Assembly (NCBI GenBank): GCA_017889345.1
Contig: JAGHEJ010000041.1
Coordinates: 1 to 64,000 of the forward strand
Source of the DNA: Clostridiales bacterium
Lineage (GTDB): Bacteria; Bacillota; Clostridia; Clostridiales; Clostridiaceae
DNA length: 64,000 bases
Direction: 5' to 3'
The notes under the pieces are model-generated. The model did no database searches. It saw only the letters and a program-made list of their open reading frames with translations, and was not told the DNA's origin. The translations under genes were made by a program, and so were the position numbers. Below are positions 16,993-29,219 of the stretch, one piece after another; the stretch's first letter is position 1, and each line of letters opens with the position of its first letter.

Positions 16993-17026
16993 AAACTATA
17001 CCTATAATCTATTTAGGTATAGTTTA
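16993..17026. terminator. Bidirectional terminator between the glycosyltransferase gene and spoIIR
   Basis: An inverted repeat AAACTATACCTA/TAGGTATAGTTT has A/T-rich flanks on both sides and lies between two convergent genes. Confidence 0.8.
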
Positions 17027-17665
17027 AAATATTTTTTGGAAAATATTTTTTACAACTTCTGCAATTTTAAAAGATACTTTTACATTTTTCTTAGCTTGTC
17101 TACCAAAAGTAGAAACCTCCATATCTTTAGAATTGTTATTAATAACTTCTACCATAGAGTTAATATTTTTATCTTTATTGTTATCATGTATAAACCCTAC
17201 ACTTGAAAATAGTAAGCTCCAAAAATTTTTCCCTTTACCTTCTCCAATATACATTATGAAAGAATCGTAAACTCCTTCAGGAATTAAATATCCTTCATAA
17301 ATTCTATCTTCAAAATACTTTTTACCAACTTTGATATTTATTTCCTGTTCAACACCAAACTCTTTTAAAACTTCTTCTCCAATTTTTTTAATGTAATATG
17401 AGTTTTTACAAAGAGTATTTAATATTTCATCTTTGCTTCCATCAAGAGTTTCCTTTTCATTTAAATATTTAACAACCCTATCTTTTATAATATTTTTAAC
17501 TTTTTGATCAAACTCAGAATCACTATTTGCAATAACGTGAAATCTTACCATTTCGTCTTTTAAATTCTTATAGTTCAAAGTAATATCTGATGATTTAGAT
17601 AAAGCAACTTGTGTACTTATAAACGTTAATAACCCTATAAAAAACAAAAATTTGATAACTCTCAT
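17024..17665 (-). CDS. spoIIR: Stage II sporulation protein R
   Basis: SpoIIR is made in the forespore, exported, and triggers SpoIIGA to process pro-sigma-E in the mother cell. The start at 17665 (MRVIKFLFFIG) is chosen because GAGGTGAG lies four bases upstream and it begins a clean signal peptide. That gives 213 residues. The hallmark RFHVIANSDSEFDQ lies near residue 40, and KVKNIIKDRVVKYL follows. It is downstream of the gerA operon but probably has its own sigma-F promoter. Confidence 0.93.
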   Translation of the reverse strand: MRVIKFLFFIGLLTFISTQVALSKSSDITLNYKNLKDEMVRFHVIANSDSEFDQKVKNIIKDRVVKYLNEKETLDGSKDEILNTLCKNSYYIKKIGEEVLKEFGVEQEINIKVGKKYFEDRIYEGYLIPEGVYDSFIMYIGEGKGKNFWSLLFSSVGFIHDNNKDKNINSMVEVINNNSKDMEVSTFGRQAKKNVKVSFKIAEVVKNIFQKIF

Positions 17666-17683
17666 AAAACTCACCTCATGATG

Positions 17684-17713
17684 AAGTATTACAGTTACCA
17701 AATTTTTTATACA
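17684..17713 (-). promoter_or_regulatory. Possible sigma-F promoter of spoIIR
   Basis: On the minus strand GTATA (17709-17713) is followed after 16 bases by GTAATACTT, a partial match to the sigma-F -10 element. It ends at the gerC stop codon. spoIIR is sigma-F-dependent in Bacillus. Confidence 0.33.
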
Positions 17714-18823
17714 TTAAAATGAAATATTTCCAATATTTGTTATATTATTTTGTATATTAATTTTAACTTCTAATTGTTTCATCCATTCATTTTGATCTTT
17801 AATTTTTGTTTTCCAAATAGAATTTTTAAATTTATAAATATAATTTTCAAAATTTAATATATCCATCTCATCTTTATAAAATCTATTAACTAAATTTATA
17901 GAAGAATTGTAAATATTTTGATCTAAATAGTTCTTTATCTCATTTAAAAAATCTTTATTTAAATTATCATGATTAATATCTAAACAATTTTTAATAATAG
18001 TTTTTAAATCAAAATTTAAAATAACATTTCCACTATCAAGAATTTTAATCTTTCTATTTATATTTTGAGCTTCAAAATCTATATTTCCATCTTTATATGG
18101 AATTTCATTTAAAATTTTAAAACTTTCTCCCCTTAAAAAATTAATAATCATGGTGTCTTTTAAATTTAATTCTTCAACAAATTTATAGTCATCTAGAATA
18201 TAACTTCCTGAAATTTTCATTGAGGTTTTATTCTCATTTAATTTTAATAAAGGAACGAGAACCACATTATTTTGAGAGAAATAATCAAACAAGTCATTTA
18301 ATGTAATAGATTTAACTCCATTTTCTTTATTATTATGCTCTATTAAATCACTAATAAATACTTGAGAATCCTCTCCTGATTTTGGTTTAAAAGTTACATA
18401 ATCACTTCCATTTCCATCTCCAACACATACATAAACTCTCCTACTTATTTGAGGTTCATGAGATAGAAAATCTAAAAATTTCTTAAGATTTTTCTCATCT
18501 TTAGCTATTTTAGAAGATAAAATAATAACTTTTACATGCTCTAAATCAACTGTTCTCTGAGTCTTTGAAATAATATCTCCAACAGCTTCATAAAAGGTTT
18601 TTCCAAATCCACTTACACTTCCTCCCCCTTTAATCTTTGAAGACTCAGGAGAAAATTCAGATATATCAGGATAAGAAAAGTTTATAGAAAAATTTCCAGA
18701 ATCATCGACATCCACAGAAATACTAGATACAAAAAGTTTTGTATCTATACTTAAAGAATATGTACACGACTTAAACATAAATATTGTTAAAATACCTAAG
18801 AGTGTAAAGAGAAACTTTCTCAA
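17714..18823 (-). CDS. gerAC: Spore germinant receptor subunit C (Ger(x)C lipoprotein)
   Basis: This is the C subunit of a GerA-type germinant receptor, anchored to the outer face of the spore inner membrane. A signal segment ends at Cys-20 (FKSC), a plausible lipoprotein cysteine. The rest matches the Ger(x)C family, with SISVDVDDSG near residue 34 and a C-terminal domain near 240-365. Its start overlaps the end of the B-subunit gene by four bases, so they are translationally coupled. The symbol is by family. The germinant is unknown. Confidence 0.88.
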   Translation of the reverse strand: MRKFLFTLLGILTIFMFKSCTYSLSIDTKLFVSSISVDVDDSGNFSINFSYPDISEFSPESSKIKGGGSVSGFGKTFYEAVGDIISKTQRTVDLEHVKVIILSSKIAKDEKNLKKFLDFLSHEPQISRRVYVCVGDGNGSDYVTFKPKSGEDSQVFISDLIEHNNKENGVKSITLNDLFDYFSQNNVVLVPLLKLNENKTSMKISGSYILDDYKFVEELNLKDTMIINFLRGESFKILNEIPYKDGNIDFEAQNINRKIKILDSGNVILNFDLKTIIKNCLDINHDNLNKDFLNEIKNYLDQNIYNSSINLVNRFYKDEMDILNFENYIYKFKNSIWKTKIKDQNEWMKQLEVKINIQNNITNIGNISF

Positions 18824-19938
18824 TTTTTCTCACCACTCTTTCTTAAAAATTGTTTTAAATAACTAACTACAAAAAGTACAATAGGCACCCCAAAAACTAT
18901 AACAAGAGAAATTGGAAACACAATATTGTTTATCATAAAATTTATATCATTTAAATTTTGAGGAACCAAAGTTAAAACATATATAATTGGTATAAACATG
19001 GTAGAAGAAACTTTATGTTTATACATTCCTAAAGATTTACTATTTATATAACTAGAATAAAAATATAAGTTTATAAAATTCATAAGAAAGAAAATTATAC
19101 AAATAGTTATAATAATCCCTTCTACTCTTTCAACAAATCCACCAGGAACATCAACTGTTGTAAAAGCTAAAATTATTGGCCAAATTGATTTTATAGTTTG
19201 ATTTATATTTAAAACGCTCACACAAATTAAAAATACAAAAGCTAAAAATATAAATGAAAAAATTGTGGATTTATAACTTACATGAAATTTCTTTTTATCC
19301 CCAAATTTATACATAGGCAGTAGATAAAACAACATAATTATTCCTGAAAAATAACTTCCAAGGGTAAGAAAACCTTTAAAATAGCTTTCTTTAGTTTTAA
19401 TTGTAATAGGTAAAAGATTTGTAATATCCACATTTTTATAAACAATTACTAAAATAACAAAACATGAAATCATAAGAAATACAAACATTATTTCATTTAA
19501 TCCAATTAAAGCTCTATCTCCTTGCCTTACAGCATAATAACTTACAAAAAGTGTAATAATTATCATAAACTCACTATTTATATTTGGAAATATATAGGTT
19601 TTTATAGATTCAATAAAAACCCTAAGTTCAATCGATACTAAAAATATAATTCCAAAACTTAATATAAACAAAAGAGTTCTTCCAATAAATTTTCCAAAAC
19701 TCTTTTCCATAATTTCATCTAATGATGAAAACCCATTTATCTTAACAATTTCATAAATCATTCTCACAAAAATCAAATAAATTATTCCATAAATAATAGT
19801 CGGTAAAAAACCATTATTCCCAAGAATCTTTCCTATATTTTGAGTATACGTAAACACACCAAATCCAACTAAACTTAAAAAAAGAGTTGCAAAAATACCA
19901 AAACTTCGAATTTTATTATGATCAACCTTATCTCTCAT
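18820..19938 (-). CDS. gerAB: Spore germinant receptor subunit B (GerAB/endospore permease family)
   Basis: A 372-residue integral membrane protein with about ten helices, related to amino-acid/polyamine permeases of the APC superfamily. In GerA-type receptors the B subunit senses the germinant. The start follows AAAGGAGTAGTATT. It is third of four genes in the operon (small membrane protein, A, B, C). Confidence 0.9.
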   Translation of the reverse strand: MRDKVDHNKIRSFGIFATLFLSLVGFGVFTYTQNIGKILGNNGFLPTIIYGIIYLIFVRMIYEIVKINGFSSLDEIMEKSFGKFIGRTLLFILSFGIIFLVSIELRVFIESIKTYIFPNINSEFMIIITLFVSYYAVRQGDRALIGLNEIMFVFLMISCFVILVIVYKNVDITNLLPITIKTKESYFKGFLTLGSYFSGIIMLFYLLPMYKFGDKKKFHVSYKSTIFSFIFLAFVFLICVSVLNINQTIKSIWPIILAFTTVDVPGGFVERVEGIIITICIIFFLMNFINLYFYSSYINSKSLGMYKHKVSSTMFIPIIYVLTLVPQNLNDINFMINNIVFPISLVIVFGVPIVLFVVSYLKQFLRKSGEKN

Positions 19939-19950
19939 AATACTACTCCT

Positions 19951-21411
19951 TTACTTTTGTCTTCTCTTATCTTGAGTATTCATATATTTAGGTCTATCCT
20001 TAAACATATAAAGAGGATATTTTACAAAAACATCTTTAAAGTCCCTTTTTCTCATATTTACAACTGGTGATAAATATGGAATTCCAAAACTTTCAATTTT
20101 AAGCAAATATGTAAGAAATATAAATGTTCCAAGTATTATTCCATAGAAACCTATAATACTTGACATTATGATATATAAAATTCTAAAAATTCTAATAGAT
20201 AATGTAATTTCATAATTTGGAGACATAAATCCACTTATAATGGTTAAAGCCACAACAACAATCATAACAGGACTTACCAAACCTGCACTAACTGCCGCTT
20301 GCCCTATAATAAGTCCTCCAACAATTCCAATAGTGGAGCCTATTGCCTTTGGAAGTCTAACAATTGCCTCAAGTAAAAATGCTAAAAACACTTCCATTAT
20401 AATAGCTTCAAACACTGGAGGAAAAGCAATTCCTTGCCTTGAACTTGCAATAGCATAAGCAAGCTTTGTTGGAATAATTGAGGTGTGAAAACTCGTAACA
20501 GAAATATACAAAGCTGGAAGTACAAGAGATACAATTAAAGCCATAAATCTTATAATTCTTGAAAAACTACTATAAATCCATCTCAAATTATAATCATCAG
20601 GAGTTTGAAATAAATTTGAAAAAGTCGATGGAACAATTAAAACAAAAGGAGAATTATCAACAACAATACAAACTTTTCCTTCATATATAGCTGAAGCTAC
20701 AACCTCTGGTCTTTCAGTTGCTTGAACTTGAGGGAATATACTCCACTTTTCCCCTTCAATAAGTTGTTCTATATACCCACTATCTAAAATTGCATCTATA
20801 TCTATTGATGATATTTTTTGTTTAACCTCATTTAAAATATCTTTATTAACAATGTCATCTATGTACATAATTGCAATGTCTGTTTTAGATCTAACACCAG
20901 CAATAGTTCCATAAACTTTTAATCTCGTATCTCTTACTCTTCTTCTTATAAGAGCAGTGTTAAATCTTAAAGATTCAGTAAATCCATCTCTTGATCCTCT
21001 TATAACAGACTCTCCTGAAGGTTCACTTACTCCTCTATTTGGCCAAGCTTTTGTAGAAATAATATAAACCTCTTCACACCCATCTACAAAAACAACTGTT
21101 TCTCCAGATAATACACTTACAACAGCCTTTTCCATGCTATTACTTTTCTTCATATCAGAAGTTGTAACAATTTCCTCTAAACTTTTATTTATATCTACAT
21201 GCTCTTTGTTACTATCAAGAAGAGTATCTACTATAAATTTACTAACAAATTGTTTATCTCCTAGACCATCTATGTATACAATAAAACATTTCTTACCTTC
21301 AACTTTAAATTCTCTAAACACAAGATCGCTATTATCTTTAAATAAATTTTTCAAATACAAAATCGTATCATCTATATTTTTAAAAATTTCATCTCTTATT
21401 TCTTCTTTCAT
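19951..21411 (-). CDS. gerAA: Spore germinant receptor subunit A (GerAA family)
   Basis: The 486-residue protein has an N-terminal cytosolic domain of about 250 residues followed by about five membrane helices. Family features include EPSGESVIRGSRDGFTESL near residue 130, RRRVRDTRLK near 158 and PALYISVTSFHTSIIPTKL near 310. A subunits form the oligomeric ion channel that starts germination. The start follows AAAGGAGGTAAAT. This appears to be the only receptor operon in the window. Confidence 0.93.
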   Translation of the reverse strand: MKEEIRDEIFKNIDDTILYLKNLFKDNSDLVFREFKVEGKKCFIVYIDGLGDKQFVSKFIVDTLLDSNKEHVDINKSLEEIVTTSDMKKSNSMEKAVVSVLSGETVVFVDGCEEVYIISTKAWPNRGVSEPSGESVIRGSRDGFTESLRFNTALIRRRVRDTRLKVYGTIAGVRSKTDIAIMYIDDIVNKDILNEVKQKISSIDIDAILDSGYIEQLIEGEKWSIFPQVQATERPEVVASAIYEGKVCIVVDNSPFVLIVPSTFSNLFQTPDDYNLRWIYSSFSRIIRFMALIVSLVLPALYISVTSFHTSIIPTKLAYAIASSRQGIAFPPVFEAIIMEVFLAFLLEAIVRLPKAIGSTIGIVGGLIIGQAAVSAGLVSPVMIVVVALTIISGFMSPNYEITLSIRIFRILYIIMSSIIGFYGIILGTFIFLTYLLKIESFGIPYLSPVVNMRKRDFKDVFVKYPLYMFKDRPKYMNTQDKRRQK

Positions 21412-21422
21412 ATTTACCTCCT

Positions 21423-21617
21423 TTAAACTCTTATTCTAAATATTAAAATTCCTATAATCCAAATTAAATATAAAACTATTAAAATTTTTGATATTAAAAC
21501 ATCCCTTTTCATTTTCGGATCTTTTTTATATCCATTAACTTCATTAAAAATTAAAATTCCAATAACTATAATCATCAAAACGTAAAATTTTTCATTTGCA
21601 ATGGTAAGTATTGTCAT
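21423..21617 (-). CDS. Small two-helix membrane protein at the head of the ger operon (candidate receptor D subunit)
   Basis: A 64-residue protein. The ATG at 21617 follows GGAAGG, while an upstream in-frame TTG would overlap that site. Two hydrophobic helices (about 8-26 and 43-62) are joined by a short basic loop KKDPKMKRD. It ends 12 bases before the A-subunit gene and sits behind the sigma-G-like promoter. Some Bacillus germinant receptors have a two-helix D subunit of about this size that modulates germination. The assignment rests on size, topology and position. Confidence 0.55.
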   Translation of the reverse strand: MTILTIANEKFYVLMIIVIGILIFNEVNGYKKDPKMKRDVLISKILIVLYLIWIIGILIFRIRV

Positions 21618-21651
21618 TATATTAATTCCTTCCAAAATTAAATAATAACTT

Positions 21652-21682
21652 TAGTATTTTCTAATTTTTTTGTAATTATACA
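21652..21682 (-). promoter_or_regulatory. Candidate sigma-G promoter of the germination operon
   Basis: On the minus strand TGTATA (21677-21682), an 18-base spacer and AATACTA (21652-21658) match the forespore sigma-G pattern (TGAATA, then CATACTA). Germinant receptor operons are sigma-G-dependent in Bacillus. Confidence 0.55.
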
Positions 21683-21687
21683 TATAA

Positions 21688-21724
21688 AAATAGGATACAT
21701 ACAAAATTCGTATATATCCTATTT
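21688..21724 (-). terminator. Terminator after ispE
   Basis: A minus-strand hairpin AAATAGGATATATACG/TGTATGTATCCTATTT with a T-rich tail overlaps the ispE stop codon. It insulates the ger operon, whose promoter begins just downstream. Confidence 0.75.
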
Positions 21725-22576
21725 ATCTATGGTCTTAGTTAAAAACACCTCATATTTATTTTTAAACTCATCATAACAATTTTGAGCTTTATTAAAATCA
21801 TCAAACATTCCATAAACACAAGAGCCACTTCCACTCATTGAAGAAGCATCTGCCCCCAAATTTATAAACTCCTCTTTTATTTCTCTAATTACATCCATTC
21901 CAAAAACATTTGAATACTCCAAAGTATTTGATACATTTTCATATACCTCATTAAAGTCCCTATTCTCTAAAGCCCTTATCATATGATTCTTATTTATATT
22001 ATATTTCATATTTTCAATATTAAAATTCTCATACACATCTTTAGTTGAAAATCCAAAACTCGGTTTAACTATAACAACATATTTGTTTGATAAAGAAGGA
22101 AGTTTATAAATTTTCTCCCCAATTCCTTCACACAAAATACTACCACCAAGTATTGAATATGGAAAATCCCCACCGAGTATAATGCTTTCTCTTGATAAAA
22201 TCTCCAACGAAATATTTAATTCATAAATTTCATTTAATAGTTTTATAATTTCTGCAGCGTTACTTGTACCTCCACCAAGGCCACCAAATACAGGTATATT
22301 TTTATAAATAACAATGGTAACTTTTCCTTTTAAATCATATTTTTCCATAAACCATTTACAAGCTTTATAACACAAATTTTCATGGTTATTTGGAACATTT
22401 TTATGATTGCAAGTAACTTCTATTTCTACTCCATTAAAATTTTTATCAATATTTACCTCTATCTCATCAAATAAATCAATTCTTTGTATCAAAGTTTCAA
22501 TATCATGATATCCATCTTTTCGTCTACCAATAATATTTAGGAAAAGATTAATCTTACCATAACTTCTTATCCTCAT
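21719..22576 (-). CDS. ispE: 4-diphosphocytidyl-2-C-methyl-D-erythritol kinase
   Basis: IspE phosphorylates CDP-methylerythritol in the MEP pathway to isopentenyl diphosphate, used for undecaprenyl phosphate. The 285 residues show the GHMP-kinase N-terminal YGKINLFLNI, the ATP loop GGLGGGTSNAAEI near residue 92 and the C-terminal SMSGSGSCVYG near 242. The start follows ATAGGAGAAAATTT. It shows that the organism makes isoprenoids by the MEP route. Confidence 0.96.
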   Translation of the reverse strand: MRIRSYGKINLFLNIIGRRKDGYHDIETLIQRIDLFDEIEVNIDKNFNGVEIEVTCNHKNVPNNHENLCYKACKWFMEKYDLKGKVTIVIYKNIPVFGGLGGGTSNAAEIIKLLNEIYELNISLEILSRESIILGGDFPYSILGGSILCEGIGEKIYKLPSLSNKYVVIVKPSFGFSTKDVYENFNIENMKYNINKNHMIRALENRDFNEVYENVSNTLEYSNVFGMDVIREIKEEFINLGADASSMSGSGSCVYGMFDDFNKAQNCYDEFKNKYEVFLTKTIDK

Positions 22577-22640
22577 AAATTTTCTCCTATACCTTTTATA
22601 ACCCTTAAATTATATAAAAAACTTTTGTTAAAATCAAAAA

Positions 22641-22677: not shown

Positions 22678-25281
22678 TTATGCTAAATCTCTCTTAGATA
22701 ATTTCATATTTTGTTTATCTAAAATTACATTGTATAATTTATCATAATCCTCATAGAAAGCTACAATAATATCTCCCTGCTTACCATTATCTATAGCCTC
22801 ACTTAGAGCATCTCCTTCATCTAATATAACTTTATATTTACTAGAATCTTCAAAGCCTTTTTTAATAATATTTGCAATCTCAAAATCTTTTCGTCCACGC
22901 TTATCACTATCTTCTTTTATATAACTAAAAGATAAATTCTTAGAACATAATTTTCCTATTTCTAAAGCAACTCTATCTCCTCTATCTCCAGGTATACCAA
23001 TAACCCCAACAATATTTTTATATCCCATGTTCTTTATACTTTCAAAAACTGCCTTAAATCCCTCTATGTTATGAGCATAATCTAAAACTACTTTTATTCC
23101 TTTGACATCAAATTGATTAAATCTTCCTTTATTATGTTTATCATCACATAAAAAACTCTTTAATCCTTTTGATATTATACAATAATCTATTTCAAGACCT
23201 ACCAAACAAGCAGTTGAGGTTAAAACATTTTCTATATTATGAACAAGAACTCCTCCACAAGTAATAGGAACATCTTTTAAATCAGCAATATGAAATATTC
23301 TCTTATTTTTTTCAACATATAAAGATCCATTATCTATATATACTCCATAATTTCCTTTTTCCAAGTTCTCTCTCAAAAACTCATTCTCACGATTTTTTGA
23401 AAACACGATCAAATTTCCTTTAGCTCTAGAAGATATTTTCTTACACATTTCATCATCACCATTAATTATAGAATATCCATCTTCTTTAACCGCTTCTACA
23501 ATTAAGGATTTAACATGAGCAAGCTCCTCTAATGAATTTACCCCATCTAAACCTAAATGATCATCACTAATATTCGTTATAACTCCAACATCTGCTAAAT
23601 CATAAGCAAGACCTTTTTTTATAATTCCTCCCCTAGCAGTTTCTAAAACCGCAATATCTACATCTTTATTTAAAAGAACACTTCTGGCACTATAAAATCC
23701 TGTCATATCTCCTTTAGCAATACATTCATCATTTACAAAAACTCCACTAGTAGTTGTCATACCAACCGTGTATCCAAGGCCTCTTAAAGTATGAGCCACA
23801 ATTCTAGTTGTAGTAGTTTTACCATTAGTTCCTGTAATAGAAATAACCGGTATACTCTTTGGAGAATTTTTAAATAAAGCTGACACTATTGCCCCAGATA
23901 CATCTCTAGGTACACCTTCACTTGGATAATGATGCATTCTAATACCAGGAGCTGCATTTATTTCAACAATAACCCCATTATCATATAATGGTTTAGATAC
24001 ATCCTCACAACATAAATCAATTCCACAAATGTTAAGTCCTATAGCTTTTGCCGCTCTTATACAAATATCTATATTTTCCTTACAAATTTCATCAGTGCAA
24101 TCAATTGAAGTTCCACCCGTTGATAAATTAGAATTCTCTCTTAAAACAACACTGTTATCTTTCTCTAATACATCTTCTAAATTATACCCTTGCTTAGAAA
24201 TACAGAAAATTAATTCGCTATCTATTTTAATTTTTGTAAGAGGCTTCTCATGACCATCTCCACGATTCTTATCTTTATTTAAAATATCAATAAGTTCTTT
24301 AATACTACTTATCCCATCTCCTGTGACAATAGGAGGAATTCTCTTAGAAACTGCTACAACTTCTCCATCTACCACACAAACTCTATAATCATAACCTCTC
24401 ACAAATTGTTCAACCATAACATCTCTAAACTTATTTTTTATATCTTCATACGCCTCAATTAATTGTTTCTCATTTTTTATATTTAAATATACCCCTTTAC
24501 CTTGATGACCATATTGAGGCTTTAGAACAACAGGATATCCTATATCTTCTGCTTCAAGTAAAAGTTCTAATTTGCTATTTACTTTATCTCCTTTTGCAAC
24601 TGGCAAAAATTGCATTTCTAAAAGTTTCTTAGTTAAAACCTTATCACTTGCAATATCAACACTTATGGAACTTGTATTTGAATCTATTGTTGCCTGTATC
24701 ATTTTGCTATATCTTCCATATCCAAATTGAAATAAAGAATTATCATCAAATCTTATAATAGGTATACCTAAATTTTTTGCAGCATCACACAATGCAAGGG
24801 CACTTGGTCCCAAATTTTCATATTCTAATATTTCTTTAATATCTTTAATTCTTGAATCAATATCTATATCTTTCTTTAAAATCAAAGAATTTATTAAATC
24901 AATTGCAAGTCTAGCTATAGCTAAAGCAGTTTTTTTGTAGATATATTCAAATACAACGTAATATAAATCCCCTTCGATTTCACGAGCTTTTCCATAAGCA
25001 ATTTCAAGCCCAACTCTACTATGTAAAGCAATAATAGTATGCTCACAAATGTGAGCTAAATAAGTTCCTTCTCTTAATCTTTTTACAAATCCATGGTCCT
25101 CGTCTATTCCACATCTATGTTCCCATATTTCTGGCAATAAATCAATTAACTTATCATTAAATCCATCTATATCTTTACTTGGAGTTTCACAATATCCCTG
25201 TAAATCAACATCCATTCTGACCACTTTTCTATGAGAGTAAATATTTTTACCCTCATAAGCTCTGTAATTTAAAATTTTCAT
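22678..25281 (-). CDS. cphA: Cyanophycin synthetase
   Basis: CphA polymerises aspartate and arginine into the storage polymer cyanophycin using ATP. The 867 residues have the expected order: an N-terminal domain (1-160), an ATP-grasp domain (about 210-470) with PVVLKPQYGHQGKGVY and the NAAPGIRMHHYP loop, and a Mur-ligase-like domain with P-loop SITGTNGKTTTTRIV near residue 490 and LDYAHN near 730. Its ATG overlaps the cphB stop by one base, so the two are coupled. Confidence 0.95.
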   Translation of the reverse strand: MKILNYRAYEGKNIYSHRKVVRMDVDLQGYCETPSKDIDGFNDKLIDLLPEIWEHRCGIDEDHGFVKRLREGTYLAHICEHTIIALHSRVGLEIAYGKAREIEGDLYYVVFEYIYKKTALAIARLAIDLINSLILKKDIDIDSRIKDIKEILEYENLGPSALALCDAAKNLGIPIIRFDDNSLFQFGYGRYSKMIQATIDSNTSSISVDIASDKVLTKKLLEMQFLPVAKGDKVNSKLELLLEAEDIGYPVVLKPQYGHQGKGVYLNIKNEKQLIEAYEDIKNKFRDVMVEQFVRGYDYRVCVVDGEVVAVSKRIPPIVTGDGISSIKELIDILNKDKNRGDGHEKPLTKIKIDSELIFCISKQGYNLEDVLEKDNSVVLRENSNLSTGGTSIDCTDEICKENIDICIRAAKAIGLNICGIDLCCEDVSKPLYDNGVIVEINAAPGIRMHHYPSEGVPRDVSGAIVSALFKNSPKSIPVISITGTNGKTTTTRIVAHTLRGLGYTVGMTTTSGVFVNDECIAKGDMTGFYSARSVLLNKDVDIAVLETARGGIIKKGLAYDLADVGVITNISDDHLGLDGVNSLEELAHVKSLIVEAVKEDGYSIINGDDEMCKKISSRAKGNLIVFSKNRENEFLRENLEKGNYGVYIDNGSLYVEKNKRIFHIADLKDVPITCGGVLVHNIENVLTSTACLVGLEIDYCIISKGLKSFLCDDKHNKGRFNQFDVKGIKVVLDYAHNIEGFKAVFESIKNMGYKNIVGVIGIPGDRGDRVALEIGKLCSKNLSFSYIKEDSDKRGRKDFEIANIIKKGFEDSSKYKVILDEGDALSEAIDNGKQGDIIVAFYEDYDKLYNVILDKQNMKLSKRDLA

Positions 25282-26102
25282 TATCTTATTCTTTCCTCCT
25301 CAAGTGGTTGTTTTTTATTTAAATCGAAACAATTCCCACTTTTTAAAACATGCATTTTAACATTAAATAAACTTAAAGGAACTTCATTTTCTTGCTCTAA
25401 TAAACTGCTATATGTTAAATTTCTTCCATCTATTATATAGACAGCACCAGATCCTATAACGCTAAAATACCCTTGTTTTTTGTTAACTACTATTGCTGTA
25501 TCTTCATCTATTCCAATCCCCAATACACTTGGATTTTCTGCAATAGCCCCAAGAAGTCTTCCAATTCTCCCTCTTTGAGCAAAGTGCTGATCTATCATAA
25601 CTCCTTGCATAAATCCAAACCCTGGACATTTAGACAAATTATGTTTTTTTGGAGACTCTTCATCAGGACCTCTAACAATCATTGTTTCACTCATAACAGA
25701 TGCTCCTGCTGAAGTTCCTGCAAATATCCCTCCATTTTCATGAAGTTTTTTTATCTCTTCATATAAAGGAGTCCCCCCTACCAAACTAGTTATCTTAAGC
25801 TGATTTCCACCTGTAAAAAATATTAATGAGGCATTTCTTACCATATCTAAAAAATTCTTATCTTCACATTGTTCTCTCGTTGAAACATCTAATATTTCAA
25901 CATTTCTAACTCCTAAATCATGAAATAAATTTTTATAATCATAACCAATTTCTCTTCCAATTTCAGAAGCTAATGTAGCAATTATCATATTATCTTCTTC
26001 TTTGTTAATCATATCTGCAACTTTTCTTAAAATTTCTCTATTTCCACTTTTATCTTCTGCTCCACCTATAATTATAAGTTCACCGCTAATAATAGAATTC
26101 AT
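25281..26102 (-). CDS. cphB: Cyanophycinase
   Basis: This serine peptidase of family S51 cuts cyanophycin to beta-Asp-Arg dipeptides. The 273 residues include the N-terminal GELIIIGGAEDK, FFTGGNQLKI near residue 95 and the nucleophile elbow GTSAGASVMS near 129. The start follows GAGGTGAGAAGTTA. It is first in a two-gene unit with cphA, so the polymer can be both made and broken down. The dipeptidase (IadA/isoaspartyl type) needed to finish breakdown is not in the window. Confidence 0.95.
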   Translation of the reverse strand: MNSIISGELIIIGGAEDKSGNREILRKVADMINKEEDNMIIATLASEIGREIGYDYKNLFHDLGVRNVEILDVSTREQCEDKNFLDMVRNASLIFFTGGNQLKITSLVGGTPLYEEIKKLHENGGIFAGTSAGASVMSETMIVRGPDEESPKKHNLSKCPGFGFMQGVMIDQHFAQRGRIGRLLGAIAENPSVLGIGIDEDTAIVVNKKQGYFSVIGSGAVYIIDGRNLTYSSLLEQENEVPLSLFNVKMHVLKSGNCFDLNKKQPLEEERIR

Positions 26103-26261
26103 TAACTTCTCACCTCATACTATTTAATATTGTTAACCACTATAAAAAATAATATTCATAATTTTCTAATAACCCCGTTATTAATCTACTTAAAATAAAC
26201 CAAGTTATAGTATGTACAATTATTATTTTTAAAATACATAGATTTATTAAATCAAAAAATT

Positions 26262-26293
26262 AAAAAGCACAGCCAGTTTGGCTATGCTTTTTA
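26262..26293 (-). terminator. Terminator after sipL
   Basis: A strong minus-strand hairpin AAAAGCATAGCC/GGCTGTGCTTTTT is followed by AATTTTTTG. It overlaps the sipL stop codon. The remaining 160 bases up to cphB hold no recognised feature. Confidence 0.88.
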
Positions 26294-27844
26294 AAATATA
26301 GCTTTTAATGGAATCAATAATTTTTGTCCAAAAATATCATCATCTTGATTTAAATCATTAATTCTACAAATATCTTCTATAGCTACACAATATTTTTTAG
26401 CTATACTCCACAAAGTATCATCTTCTCCTACAATATAAATTATAACACTACAATCTTTTTCAGGAGCTTCTTCTTGAGTTCTATATATATCAACTAATAT
26501 ATCTTTTCTAACCTCAGATCTTAATTGAGTTTTAACATTAACAATAACTTTTATTCCTATTGTTTTAGCTTCAATATAAGCATCTATACTTTCTAGATTA
26601 CATTTACCAATAACATCCATATCTATTTTTATATTTTCATTTTCAATAGATGTTGAAAATGGAATTTCATGTTTAAAGCTTACAAATTCATTTTCTTTAG
26701 AATTAGTTTTATATATTACCTCAGCTTTAACAACTCCATCTACTATAACTTTTCCTTCAATAATTTTTTTGTTAGTTATAAAACATCTTCCAGTACTATA
26801 AACAATATTTGTTGGTACCTCTTCAACTTCAACATTATCTTTAACAATTATGTCTGTACTATTGTAATCTTCAATATTATTTATTTTATAACTATTTTTA
26901 ACTAAATTTATAAATGAAGTCTTACTATAAGCATCATCTATAGCAGAAATTATATTATTATGCATTACCTTTAAATCGCATTTTAAATTTAAATAAATAT
27001 TTATAATTCTGCTTTCTCCTGACTCATCTTCATCTATCATATATTCAAAACCAATCATACTCCAATTATCAACTGGAATCATATCTTCTGAAACATCTTC
27101 AGAATCAATCTCTTTAGTCAAATAAATATCTTGCTCTAAATAACATAATTCATCAGAGCCTACTCCCTTATATAATACCTTTATTTTACAATAAGCATTA
27201 TAAACAATTTTCCCTTCTAAAAGCTTACACTCTGTTTTATATATATAAGAATCACAAACTAATATTTTTGAAATAGATACCTTATCTAAAGGTATATTTA
27301 TTATTGTTTCATTTGAAAGTTCTTCTGTAAATGTACCTTTTAATTCACAAATTTTTATATCCTTCATTAAAAGTTGAATATCATTTTGTCCTTCTAAATC
27401 ATATACAACATCTACATCTAAAACTTCGTTTGCTATAGATGTGAATTTTAAAACTCCATCAACACTTATTTTTCTTTCATTTAATACTAACGAATCTATT
27501 CTTATAACATCTGTTGTAACATTATATAAACTTTCTTTCTTCATACCAAAAGTTTCAATATACAAATTAAATTTATCTGAATAAGAAACATTATATGTAT
27601 TATCTTTCTCCTCATCTTTTGATGTATAAATTACTGTATATAAAATCTCCCCTTCAACAAACACTTTATCTGTAAAAGATTCTGTATTATTAATCTTAGG
27701 TTTAACTTCTACCATTAATATTTTATAAACATCTGGATGCGTATCTGGAATTAAATACTCTCCTTTAACTGTAAACTCATTAGTTCCCTCAACTGATTTA
27801 CCTTCGTAACTAATTTTTTGTTTCTTTAAATTAATTTCTTCCAC
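26291..27844 (-). CDS. sipL: SipL-like spore coat morphogenesis protein (DUF3794 repeats and LysM)
   Basis: The 517 residues carry three DUF3794-type beta-rich repeats and a C-terminal LysM domain (about 470-515, with the YIVGEDDTLWSIAKKYC start). This architecture matches SipL of Clostridioides difficile, whose LysM domain binds SpoIVA to attach the coat to the forespore. The start is GTG after GGAGGTAGAAAA. Position near yabG and veg is as in other clostridia. Confidence 0.9.
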   Translation of the reverse strand: MEEINLKKQKISYEGKSVEGTNEFTVKGEYLIPDTHPDVYKILMVEVKPKINNTESFTDKVFVEGEILYTVIYTSKDEEKDNTYNVSYSDKFNLYIETFGMKKESLYNVTTDVIRIDSLVLNERKISVDGVLKFTSIANEVLDVDVVYDLEGQNDIQLLMKDIKICELKGTFTEELSNETIINIPLDKVSISKILVCDSYIYKTECKLLEGKIVYNAYCKIKVLYKGVGSDELCYLEQDIYLTKEIDSEDVSEDMIPVDNWSMIGFEYMIDEDESGESRIINIYLNLKCDLKVMHNNIISAIDDAYSKTSFINLVKNSYKINNIEDYNSTDIIVKDNVEVEEVPTNIVYSTGRCFITNKKIIEGKVIVDGVVKAEVIYKTNSKENEFVSFKHEIPFSTSIENENIKIDMDVIGKCNLESIDAYIEAKTIGIKVIVNVKTQLRSEVRKDILVDIYRTQEEAPEKDCSVIIYIVGEDDTLWSIAKKYCVAIEDICRINDLNQDDDIFGQKLLIPLKAIF

Positions 27845-27937
27845 TTTTCTACCTCCAAGCCTTAATTAATACATATTTATTTAAAAATATTAAAAATATT
27901 CCTAATTTTAACTTTAGAGATAAAAAATAATAAAAAA

Positions 27938-27968
27938 TAAGAGTTTCTAAATTTATAGAAACTCTTTT
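27938..27968 (-). terminator. Terminator after veg
   Basis: An 11-base stem AAGAGTTTCTA/TAGAAACTCTT is followed on the minus strand by ATTTTTTATT. It lies between veg and sipL. Confidence 0.85.
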
Positions 27969-28016
27969 AAAACACACTCTCTCTTATTATCATATGTAAA
28001 CTAAATTATTGTACCA

Positions 28017-28253
28017 TTAACTCGCGTAAACTATTTGAACTGTATTAGTCAACACATCAGAATAACTATATGTTACTATACGTTGGGTGTCAGTTTCCAA
28101 TCTTATTAAAAAGATACTTCGATACGTTTTTTCAATAGTACCTTTATCAATAAAAATACGTCGCCTTCCTCCATTAGCCTTAAGAGTAACCTTATGACCA
28201 AGATGATTTTCTATATCTCTCTTTATAGATGCTAGGGTTTTAACACTCCCCAT
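28017..28253 (-). CDS. veg: Veg family protein
   Basis: A conserved 78-residue Firmicutes protein with an Sm-like beta-barrel, linked in Bacillus to biofilm gene control and spore outgrowth. The N-terminal LASIKRDIENHLGHKVTLKA and the basic GGRRR turn match. The start at 28253 (MGSVKTL) is chosen because GAGGG lies at the right distance. An upstream GTG overlaps that site. In Bacillus veg lies beside ispE and yabG. Here it sits just upstream of sipL and downstream of yabG. Confidence 0.9.
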   Translation of the reverse strand: MGSVKTLASIKRDIENHLGHKVTLKANGGRRRIFIDKGTIEKTYRSIFLIRLETDTQRIVTYSYSDVLTNTVQIVYAS

Positions 28254-28331
28254 AATCAACACCCTCTTTCCTATTTCTTATTGTACTATATTTAATTAAT
28301 AATTGTCAAATTTTACTATTTTAAATATAAA

Positions 28332-29219
28332 CTACATATAAAAAGATTTAGGAAATCCCTCTCTATATTTACCACGAGTTTGTATTCCTCCAATTCCATT
28401 AAAACCTGTTATAGTTTCATTTAAAAGTTCATCTATTCTCACAGTTTTATCTATAGAGGTATTAAACACTTTTGAACATACCAAAACAGGATCTAAACAA
28501 TGAACTAAAACTCTTTTAGGAGAAGTTGCAAAATTTGCACCTGCCTCTATTAAAAGTTCATAACAACTTTGACATGCCCCTGCAAATATAACTAAATTAT
28601 CTAAGTTTTTTTCATAACGCCTAAGCTTTTTTACACTCTCTACAAAATATTTTGAGTTCTTATAAAAATTCAAATCCATATAATCGTATATATTTTTACT
28701 CATACTATCATGACCAGTTAAAACTACAATATCTGGACGATAAAACTTAACAAGATCTAAAATAACATCTGGTTGTTTACTCTCTTCAACACATTCTCCA
28801 TGAGCATTTATTAATAACTCTTCGTAAACTTCCATGCACTTACATAAATAATCAAAATCTCCATCTATATGAAGAACACTTCCGCTTTTACCAAAGTTAA
28901 ATGCCTTTTTTTTTACAACTCTTACATCTCTTGCCTTACTCTGTTCTAATTTTAAACTTTCTGAATCATTTCTAAATTTAAGGTTTTTTTTATTAGAATA
29001 AGCTTGCTTTATTTTCTCTTTAATTAAATTAGATGCCTTTTCATTTGAAGAAGTATTATTTATAACTTCAAGATCATCTTCAAATGCATCTGCAATAATT
29101 CTTATACTTTTTCCCTTTAATATATATCGCTTTTTATTTTCATGCTCTTTTATATCAACAACTTTAAATTTAATATCTTTATTGTAAGATTTTCTAACTA
29201 CTATATCTCCAATTTTCAT
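28332..29219 (-). CDS. yabG: Sporulation-specific protease YabG
   Basis: YabG (peptidase family U57) trims coat and cortex-associated proteins during late sporulation under sigma-K. The 295 residues begin with the SH3-like MKIGDIVVRKSYNKD. The conserved catalytic half has VLHIDGDFDYL near residue 115, VLTGHDSMSK near 160 and FAGACQSCYELLIEAGANFASP-like sequence near 215. The start follows AAAAAGGACTTTT. It is between fabI and veg, the usual clostridial neighbourhood for veg. Confidence 0.93.
   Translation of the reverse strand: MKIGDIVVRKSYNKDIKFKVVDIKEHENKKRYILKGKSIRIIADAFEDDLEVINNTSSNEKASNLIKEKIKQAYSNKKNLKFRNDSESLKLEQSKARDVRVVKKKAFNFGKSGSVLHIDGDFDYLCKCMEVYEELLINAHGECVEESKQPDVILDLVKFYRPDIVVLTGHDSMSKNIYDYMDLNFYKNSKYFVESVKKLRRYEKNLDNLVIFAGACQSCYELLIEAGANFATSPKRVLVHCLDPVLVCSKVFNTSIDKTVRIDELLNETITGFNGIGGIQTRGKYREGFPKSFYM

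Follow-up and report, generated by a model that had tools for sequence, protein, structure and literature searches.

A small two-helix gene at the head of a clostridial gerABC operon, a probable fourth component of one lineage of GerA-type germinant receptors

Germinant receptor operons of the GerA type may encode more than their A, B and C subunits. In the 64,000-nucleotide stretch analysed here (the window), the gerA-gerB-gerC operon is preceded by a small gene, hereafter D, which is probably a dedicated, D-type fourth component of one GerA-type receptor lineage. The support comes from the gene itself, its order and conservation, its occurrence in three different ger-linked arrangements, purifying selection, a divergence correlated with that of the receptor genes, and conservation of the promoter. 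In the model that we propose, D would be the first gene of the operon and would be co-transcribed with gerA, gerB and gerC in the forespore. Its product would span the inner membrane of the spore as a two-helix hairpin, the basic loop facing the core, and would pack against GerA and/or GerB; it could thereby help receptor assembly or tune receptor sensitivity, as Bacillus D subunits do.

By sequence, the host is a segmented filamentous bacterium (SFB), Candidatus Arthromitus, and its closest named GerA match is that of Candidatus Arthromitus sp. SFB-turkey (81% identity). The ger operon of the window is the only GerA-type receptor in the 1.66 Mb assembly (95% complete), and two congeners have one GerA each. 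Genes for all three classical subunits are present in one operon (PF03323, PF03845, PF05504/PF25198), gerC and gerB overlapping by 4 bp, and the whole unit reads terminator, promoter, small gene, gerA, gerB, gerC (Table 1). An Rfam scan of positions 21000-22600 gave no match. The layout agrees with the excerpted text of PMC9482736, in which SFB carry a single ger operon with cphAB and ispE in front; the same excerpt proposes that cphAB/ispE may be co-transcribed with the ger operon, and the strong ispE terminator lying in between argues against this. Two further observations concern the flanks. Upstream of ispE, positions 22678-29219 form a compact, partly sporulation-related neighbourhood with cyanophycin synthetase and cyanophycinase-like genes, a SipL/LysM protein, Veg and YabG. 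Downstream, SFB-turkey is said in the excerpt of PMC9482736 to encode no SpoIIR; this is contradicted by an intact spoIIR that we find after gerC in that genome (locus L180, 1689-2402, minus strand; PF09551 109 bits, phmmer 3.3e-83).

Table 1. Features of the ger operon and its flanks, in window coordinates
Feature	Coordinates	Strand	Evidence
Candidate D-type subunit gene, CLC_0170-like, 64 aa, two predicted membrane helices	21423..21617	-	ORF, phmmer, NF042414 17.9 bits, AlphaFold
Ribosome-binding site GGAAGGA for the ATG of the small gene	21626..21632	-	sequence reading
Putative forespore-type promoter TGTATA-18-AATACTA, also GTATA-15-GAAAATACTA	21652..21682	-	sequence reading, upstream-region comparison
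gerA, receptor A subunit, sole GerA in assembly	19951..21411	-	PF03323, 613 bits
gerB, receptor B subunit (spore permease)	18820..19938	-	PF03845 / TIGR00912
gerC, receptor C subunit	17714..18823	-	PF25198, PF05504, TIGR02887
spoIIR, conserved downstream flank, not claimed as receptor part	17024..17701	-	PF09551, synteny
ispE, conserved upstream flank, outside the unit	21719..22576	-	TIGR00154, synteny
Intrinsic terminator of ispE, sets ispE apart from the ger operon	21688..21724	-	17 pairs; fold z-score -7.1

Between ispE and gerA, an ORF of 64 codons runs on the minus strand from an ATG at 21617 to a stop ending at 21423. An alternative TTG start 18 bp further upstream would yield 70 aa; the ATG, with GGAAGGA as a good ribosome-binding site, is the favoured start. 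The AlphaFold model (mean pLDDT 78, pTM 0.54) has two long helices, residues 9-29 and 34-63, and suggests a helical hairpin. An earlier, sequence-only reading of this DNA had described a 64-residue two-helix protein encoded by the first gene of a gerA-gerB-gerC operon; the ORF and the two modelled helices confirm the former point, and the latter agrees with the position of the ORF, on the same strand as gerA and separated from it by an 11-bp spacer. A Pfam scan of the 64-aa protein gave no match, and an NCBIfam scan gave one chance-level match together with, below threshold, family NF042414.

The small ORF is, on the sequence comparisons that follow, a diverged relative of NF042414, the CLC_0170 family, which is functionally unnamed in NCBIfam. 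The window protein scores 17.9 bits against this model, under the curated cut-off of 30, while its SFB-turkey orthologue scores 33.1 bits, over the cut-off, and the third SFB orthologue gives no match to it. Searching the plus-strand ORFs of 74 loci with the window protein (phmmer) returned ten matches, namely itself, the two other SFB proteins and seven proteins from three other genera (3e-6 to 7e-4), all of which sit directly between ispE and gerA; 59 other D genes lay beyond the reach of this single-sequence search. When a profile free of SFB sequences was used, the window ORF ranked first among the 173 ORFs of the window (E 7.9e-5; next 0.11). Together, the SFB-turkey score, the phmmer matches and this ranking argue that the kinship is real. 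With the CLC_0170 family the window protein shares its length, its two helices and its position ahead of gerA; it differs in having no Asp after helix 1, a residue conserved in 94% of the 66 non-SFB members, whose most conserved positions include Tyr10 (98%), Asp26 (94%) and Phe7, Phe30 and Leu56 (88% each). On sequence grounds, the small gene belongs to a family that is widespread in clostridia and that already has an NCBIfam entry. The open-access literature yielded neither a paper naming CLC_0170 nor an experiment on any member of the family.

Conservation beside receptor operons was assessed at three taxonomic levels. The window's family (Clostridiaceae, going by the named members) was represented by 116 genomes, of which 65 have an over-cut-off NF042414 match; each of these 65 is followed, at 66-270 bp, by a gerA in the same orientation. 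Such matches are found in 65 of the 106 genomes with GerA versus none of the 10 without (Fisher p 1.6e-4, kinship ignored). The usual order in the family is ispE-D-gerA-gerB-gerC-spoIIR. We inspected 73 loci, comprising the 65 with a match and eight further gerA loci of the ispE type without one; the 115 best GerA rows contained nine unmatched gerA genes with this match length (up to 459 codons), of which these are eight, and the sequence of the ninth (L189) begins just before gerA. A small ORF of 53-69 aa is present in 69 of the 73. In four of the eight unmatched loci the small gene is present but diverged or short (the window, the third SFB, G066 and G031), and in the other four (G028, G051, G009 and G073) there is just a short gap. 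Given these D-less gerABC loci, and the GerA-bearing family genomes in which no small gene was detected (up to 37 of 106), the small gene appears to serve one receptor lineage, not receptors in general, and is dispensable there. The four loci with a gap (L181-L184), which keep the ispE-gerABC-spoIIR arrangement without the small gene, amount to a natural experiment.

Taken alone, the conserved ispE-spoIIR order could reflect hitch-hiking. The small gene would then be a neighbour without any receptor role, or a translated leader that merely couples translation to gerA, and its presence at the same ispE-spoIIR locus throughout the window's family is what such a reading would lead one to expect. 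Outside the family, however, this order is no longer the rule: D may precede gerA, follow the operon or converge with gerC. The class-level sample held 391 genomes taken regardless of GerA, 54 of them with an over-cut-off match; 48 of the 56 matches outside the family were fetched, eight at 20.3-22.2 bits being left out. D stands before gerA in 28 of these 48 loci, after the operon in 8 and convergent with the 3' end of gerC in 10; in the remaining two, which have no ger genes, the contig ends just past D. In the phylum-level sample (299 genomes, again taken regardless of GerA, 35 over the cut-off; 40 of 41 matches fetched), D precedes gerA in 16 loci, follows the operon in 15 and is convergent in 4; one locus has no ger genes, and four have them at a greater distance within the sequence fetched (one of the four, L303, lies inside a long ORF and is a doubtful reading). 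Paenibacillus lignilyticus likewise carries a D gene, convergent with gerC. The neighbourhoods around class- and phylum-level matches reach 3 kb at most. The check that the sequence-only reading had proposed, conservation of the small gene beside ger operons in other clostridia, thus came out positive, through the 65 of 65 family matches and the three arrangements. Neither a leader nor a hitch-hiker of ispE explains the after-operon and convergent positions, the protein is under purifying selection, and its divergence tracks the Ger genes over the flanks (see below); we regard a bystander or leader role as very improbable.

The history of the gene was followed on two GerA trees, both of them quick and with many weak branches. 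On the first, built from 72 chosen rows (43 of the 74 family loci and 29 others), the 57 D-linked and 4 D-less receptors form one group with SH-aLRT 94, a value slightly short of the tool's star, and the clostridial paralogues and Bacillus receptors in the set fall outside it. The presence of D on this tree needs four changes and fits one gain with three losses. On the second, made from the C-terminal parts of GerA (71 chosen rows), receptors with D before, after or convergent fall largely in different groups, which suggests that D changed place yet stayed with receptors. The small gene is under purifying selection: its dN/dS is 0.10-0.31 in 14 closer pairs, mostly higher than that of gerA in the same pairs, and 0.36-0.44 among the SFB small genes, for which dS is nearly saturated; the values for the ger genes cover the pairs other than the two with SFB-turkey. 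Over 59 loci, the divergence of D correlates at 0.80-0.82 with that of gerA, gerB and gerC, versus 0.66 with ispE and 0.64 with spoIIR. Partial correlations between D and the ger genes given ispE are 0.63-0.66 (permutation p 0.0005), whereas those between D and ispE are 0.35 given gerA (p 0.0005), 0.12 given gerB and 0.16 given gerC. As the ger correlations exceed those with ispE and spoIIR, and the partial correlations behave likewise, the divergence of D is tied more closely to the receptor than to the neighbouring genes.

Correlated divergence of this kind fits a subunit or a chaperone alike, and the product of the small gene might be an assembly chaperone or membrane-insertion factor that acts on GerA/GerB during sporulation, not a stoichiometric subunit. 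A chaperone role is suggested for D subunits in the excerpted text of PMC4661057, and the second helix of the CLC_0170 family bears a weak similarity to SecE/Sss1: Sss1 is the only PDB sequence that it matches (E 0.0045), and 3 of 24 members match a SecE model. The SecE similarity, however, spans about one helix and may be a chance resemblance between membrane helices with a basic flank. We consider a chaperone or insertion factor rather unlikely, and keep a dedicated fourth component as the preferred reading.

Upstream of the small gene, the sequence-only reading had proposed a sigma-G promoter, TGTATA-18-AATACTA. By itself, a single match of this kind is weak. Of the 69 homologous regions upstream of D, 5 match a loose sigma-G pattern (shuffle mean 1.6, maximum 5), three of the five being the three SFB genomes. 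The canonical sigma-G -10 box of B. subtilis is CATNHTA; at the right spacing, this B. subtilis consensus is present in none of the 69 regions. What the regions have in common is a core, G[ACT]ATA-N17/18-[AG]ANANTA, which is present in 62 of 69 against a shuffle mean of 1.9 and maximum of 5, a count that is partly circular because the core was derived from these same regions; a fuller form, G[ACT]ATA-N14-16-GNNRANANTA, is found in 51 of 69 (shuffle mean 0.3). An independent check is given by the class-level loci with D first, which had no part in the derivation: 18 of 28 contain the core before D (shuffle mean 0.55, maximum 4). When one locus per genus is counted without SFB, 22 of 27 have the core. 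It is never seen before D in the 20 class-level loci arranged otherwise (10 convergent, 8 downstream, 2 cut), and we therefore do not extend the forespore reading to convergent D genes.

Within the operon, neither form of the core occurs in the 150 bp before gerA in the 69 loci with D, a stretch that consists mostly of the small gene itself; in the D-less loci, the core precedes gerA in three of four. Ahead of gerB it is found in 8 of 69 loci (shuffle mean 1.5, maximum 6), and in 5 loci each ahead of gerC and at -300 to -150. Two other promoter types were tried and rejected: a sigma-F-like pattern with GG is seen in 1 of 69 regions only, and sigma-A patterns precede D in 9 of 69, below the shuffle mean of 14.4. 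The conserved -10 box GNNRANANTA lies between the sigma-F and sigma-G types of B. subtilis. We read the core as a putative promoter of forespore type, recognized by sigma-G or sigma-F, that serves the operon as a whole, sigma-G being the likelier by analogy with the Bacillus ger operons. The forespore character of the earlier promoter call is thus retained, but its assignment to sigma-G was too specific. As a separate observation, 21 of 63 family loci have the core in the 150 bp upstream of spoIIR, near where gerC ends (shuffle mean 3.7, maximum 6), and spoIIR may have its own promoter there.

Clostridial germinant receptors have so far been studied and complemented as three-gene units. From the locus numbering, CLC_0170 presumably stands before the counterpart of the C. 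botulinum operon gerXA1. The receptor of the window is a clostridial GerA receptor, like gerXA1 and its C. sporogenes homologue. In the excerpted text of PMC4161481, gerXA1 (CBO0123-0125), of which CBO0123 is needed for amino-acid germination, is called tricistronic and ger operons are taken to consist of A, B and C genes; the description of gerXA1 in that excerpt names no small gene. If a fourth gene and a forespore promoter precede gerA, constructs starting at gerA would miss both. SFB are immune-active gut commensals with one GerA-type receptor, of which the small protein would be a part. Our analysis also provides a functional lead for the unnamed family NF042414, and bears on the role of D subunits, a question left open in the excerpt of PMC4661057.

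The best-documented point of comparison is GerUD of Bacillus megaterium. According to the same excerpt of PMC4661057, GerUD modulates germinant affinity, the apparent Km for glucose going from 1.7 to 7.5 mM without it; GFP and PhoA fusions place its loop outside, and the protein tolerates extreme sequence change, even reversal (Table 3 therein). For D subunits, this text cites Paredes-Sabja 2011, a review that covers Bacillales and Clostridiales and could already name D genes of clostridia; the open-access literature yielded no paper treating D subunits in clostridia, the one candidate being, by title and abstract, about B. subtilis spores. Like GerUD and GerKD (B. megaterium, B. subtilis), the clostridial protein is a small two-helix membrane protein whose gene lies in or next to a ger operon. 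For sequence comparison, we used gerUD on pBM700, divergent from gerUA, which was recognized without its locus tag, from its length of 76 aa, its place and where its helices lie; no ORF was present between the two gerB genes, where gerUD was also sought, and tblastn of GerC in the plasmids gave no match.

These resemblances raise the prospect that the small gene and the Bacillus D subunits (GerUD/GerKD) are truly homologous but have diverged past recognition: size, helices and adjoining ger genes are the same, and the tolerance of GerUD to extreme change, even reversal, would allow for such divergence. Profile comparison, which the sequence-only reading had proposed as a check, showed no homology to the tested subunit GerUD: hhalign gives a probability of 0.7% (E 0.082) between the clostridial family and the GerUD group, whose alignment is thin (4 rows). 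A B. subtilis control genome has no NF042414 match at E 0.01 or 0.001. The loop also differs. Of the 69 family members, 68 have a net positive loop, as do 40 of 48 at class level; the mean charge is +4.0 over the 69 and +3.0 in the three SFB, versus -1 in two GerUD proteins. By the positive-inside rule, the clostridial loop is predicted to face the spore core, whereas the net negative loop of GerUD is outside by reporters; the orientation predicted for the clostridial protein is thus opposite to that of GerUD.

A second group of Bacillus genes bears on this question. Small two-helix ORFs lie directly after gerC in Bacillus relatives (L313, 4404-4643; L323, 3285-3506; L324, 3482-3715; L327, 3304-3531; L328, 4345-4578); in three of them the loop charge was determined and is basic, as in the clostridial family. 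As a group they show no profile similarity to GerUD, and they are possibly a further D-type family. The clostridial profile gives one of them 11.8 bits (E 9e-4), against 6.7 bits for the best shuffled control, and a distant kinship with the clostridial family is possible. The hhalign probability between the clostridial family and these gerC-side ORFs is nevertheless 6.5%, from a thin alignment (5 rows), and the GerUD and gerC-side groups give no profile match to each other, again with thin alignments (4 and 5 rows). All in all, we judge true homology with the Bacillus D subunits unlikely.

We accordingly file the small gene as a family of its own with a D-like function, because it has no profile similarity to GerUD and its predicted orientation is opposite. 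The earlier identification of a D subunit holds as regards size, helices, place and conservation, but not as regards membership of the tested Bacillus D family; the range of that family is not widened by the present gene, which belongs, as far as sequence tells, to a different one. CLC_0170 proteins may or may not prove, with the balance in our view even, to be an ancient and widespread fourth receptor subunit across Bacillota, unrelated and opposite to the GerUD type. If they do, spore formers recruited two-helix D-type partners more than once, and the sole receptor of SFB is a four-part machine. For the tuning role that we propose for the clostridial protein, GerUD of B. megaterium would offer, by analogy, the precedent.
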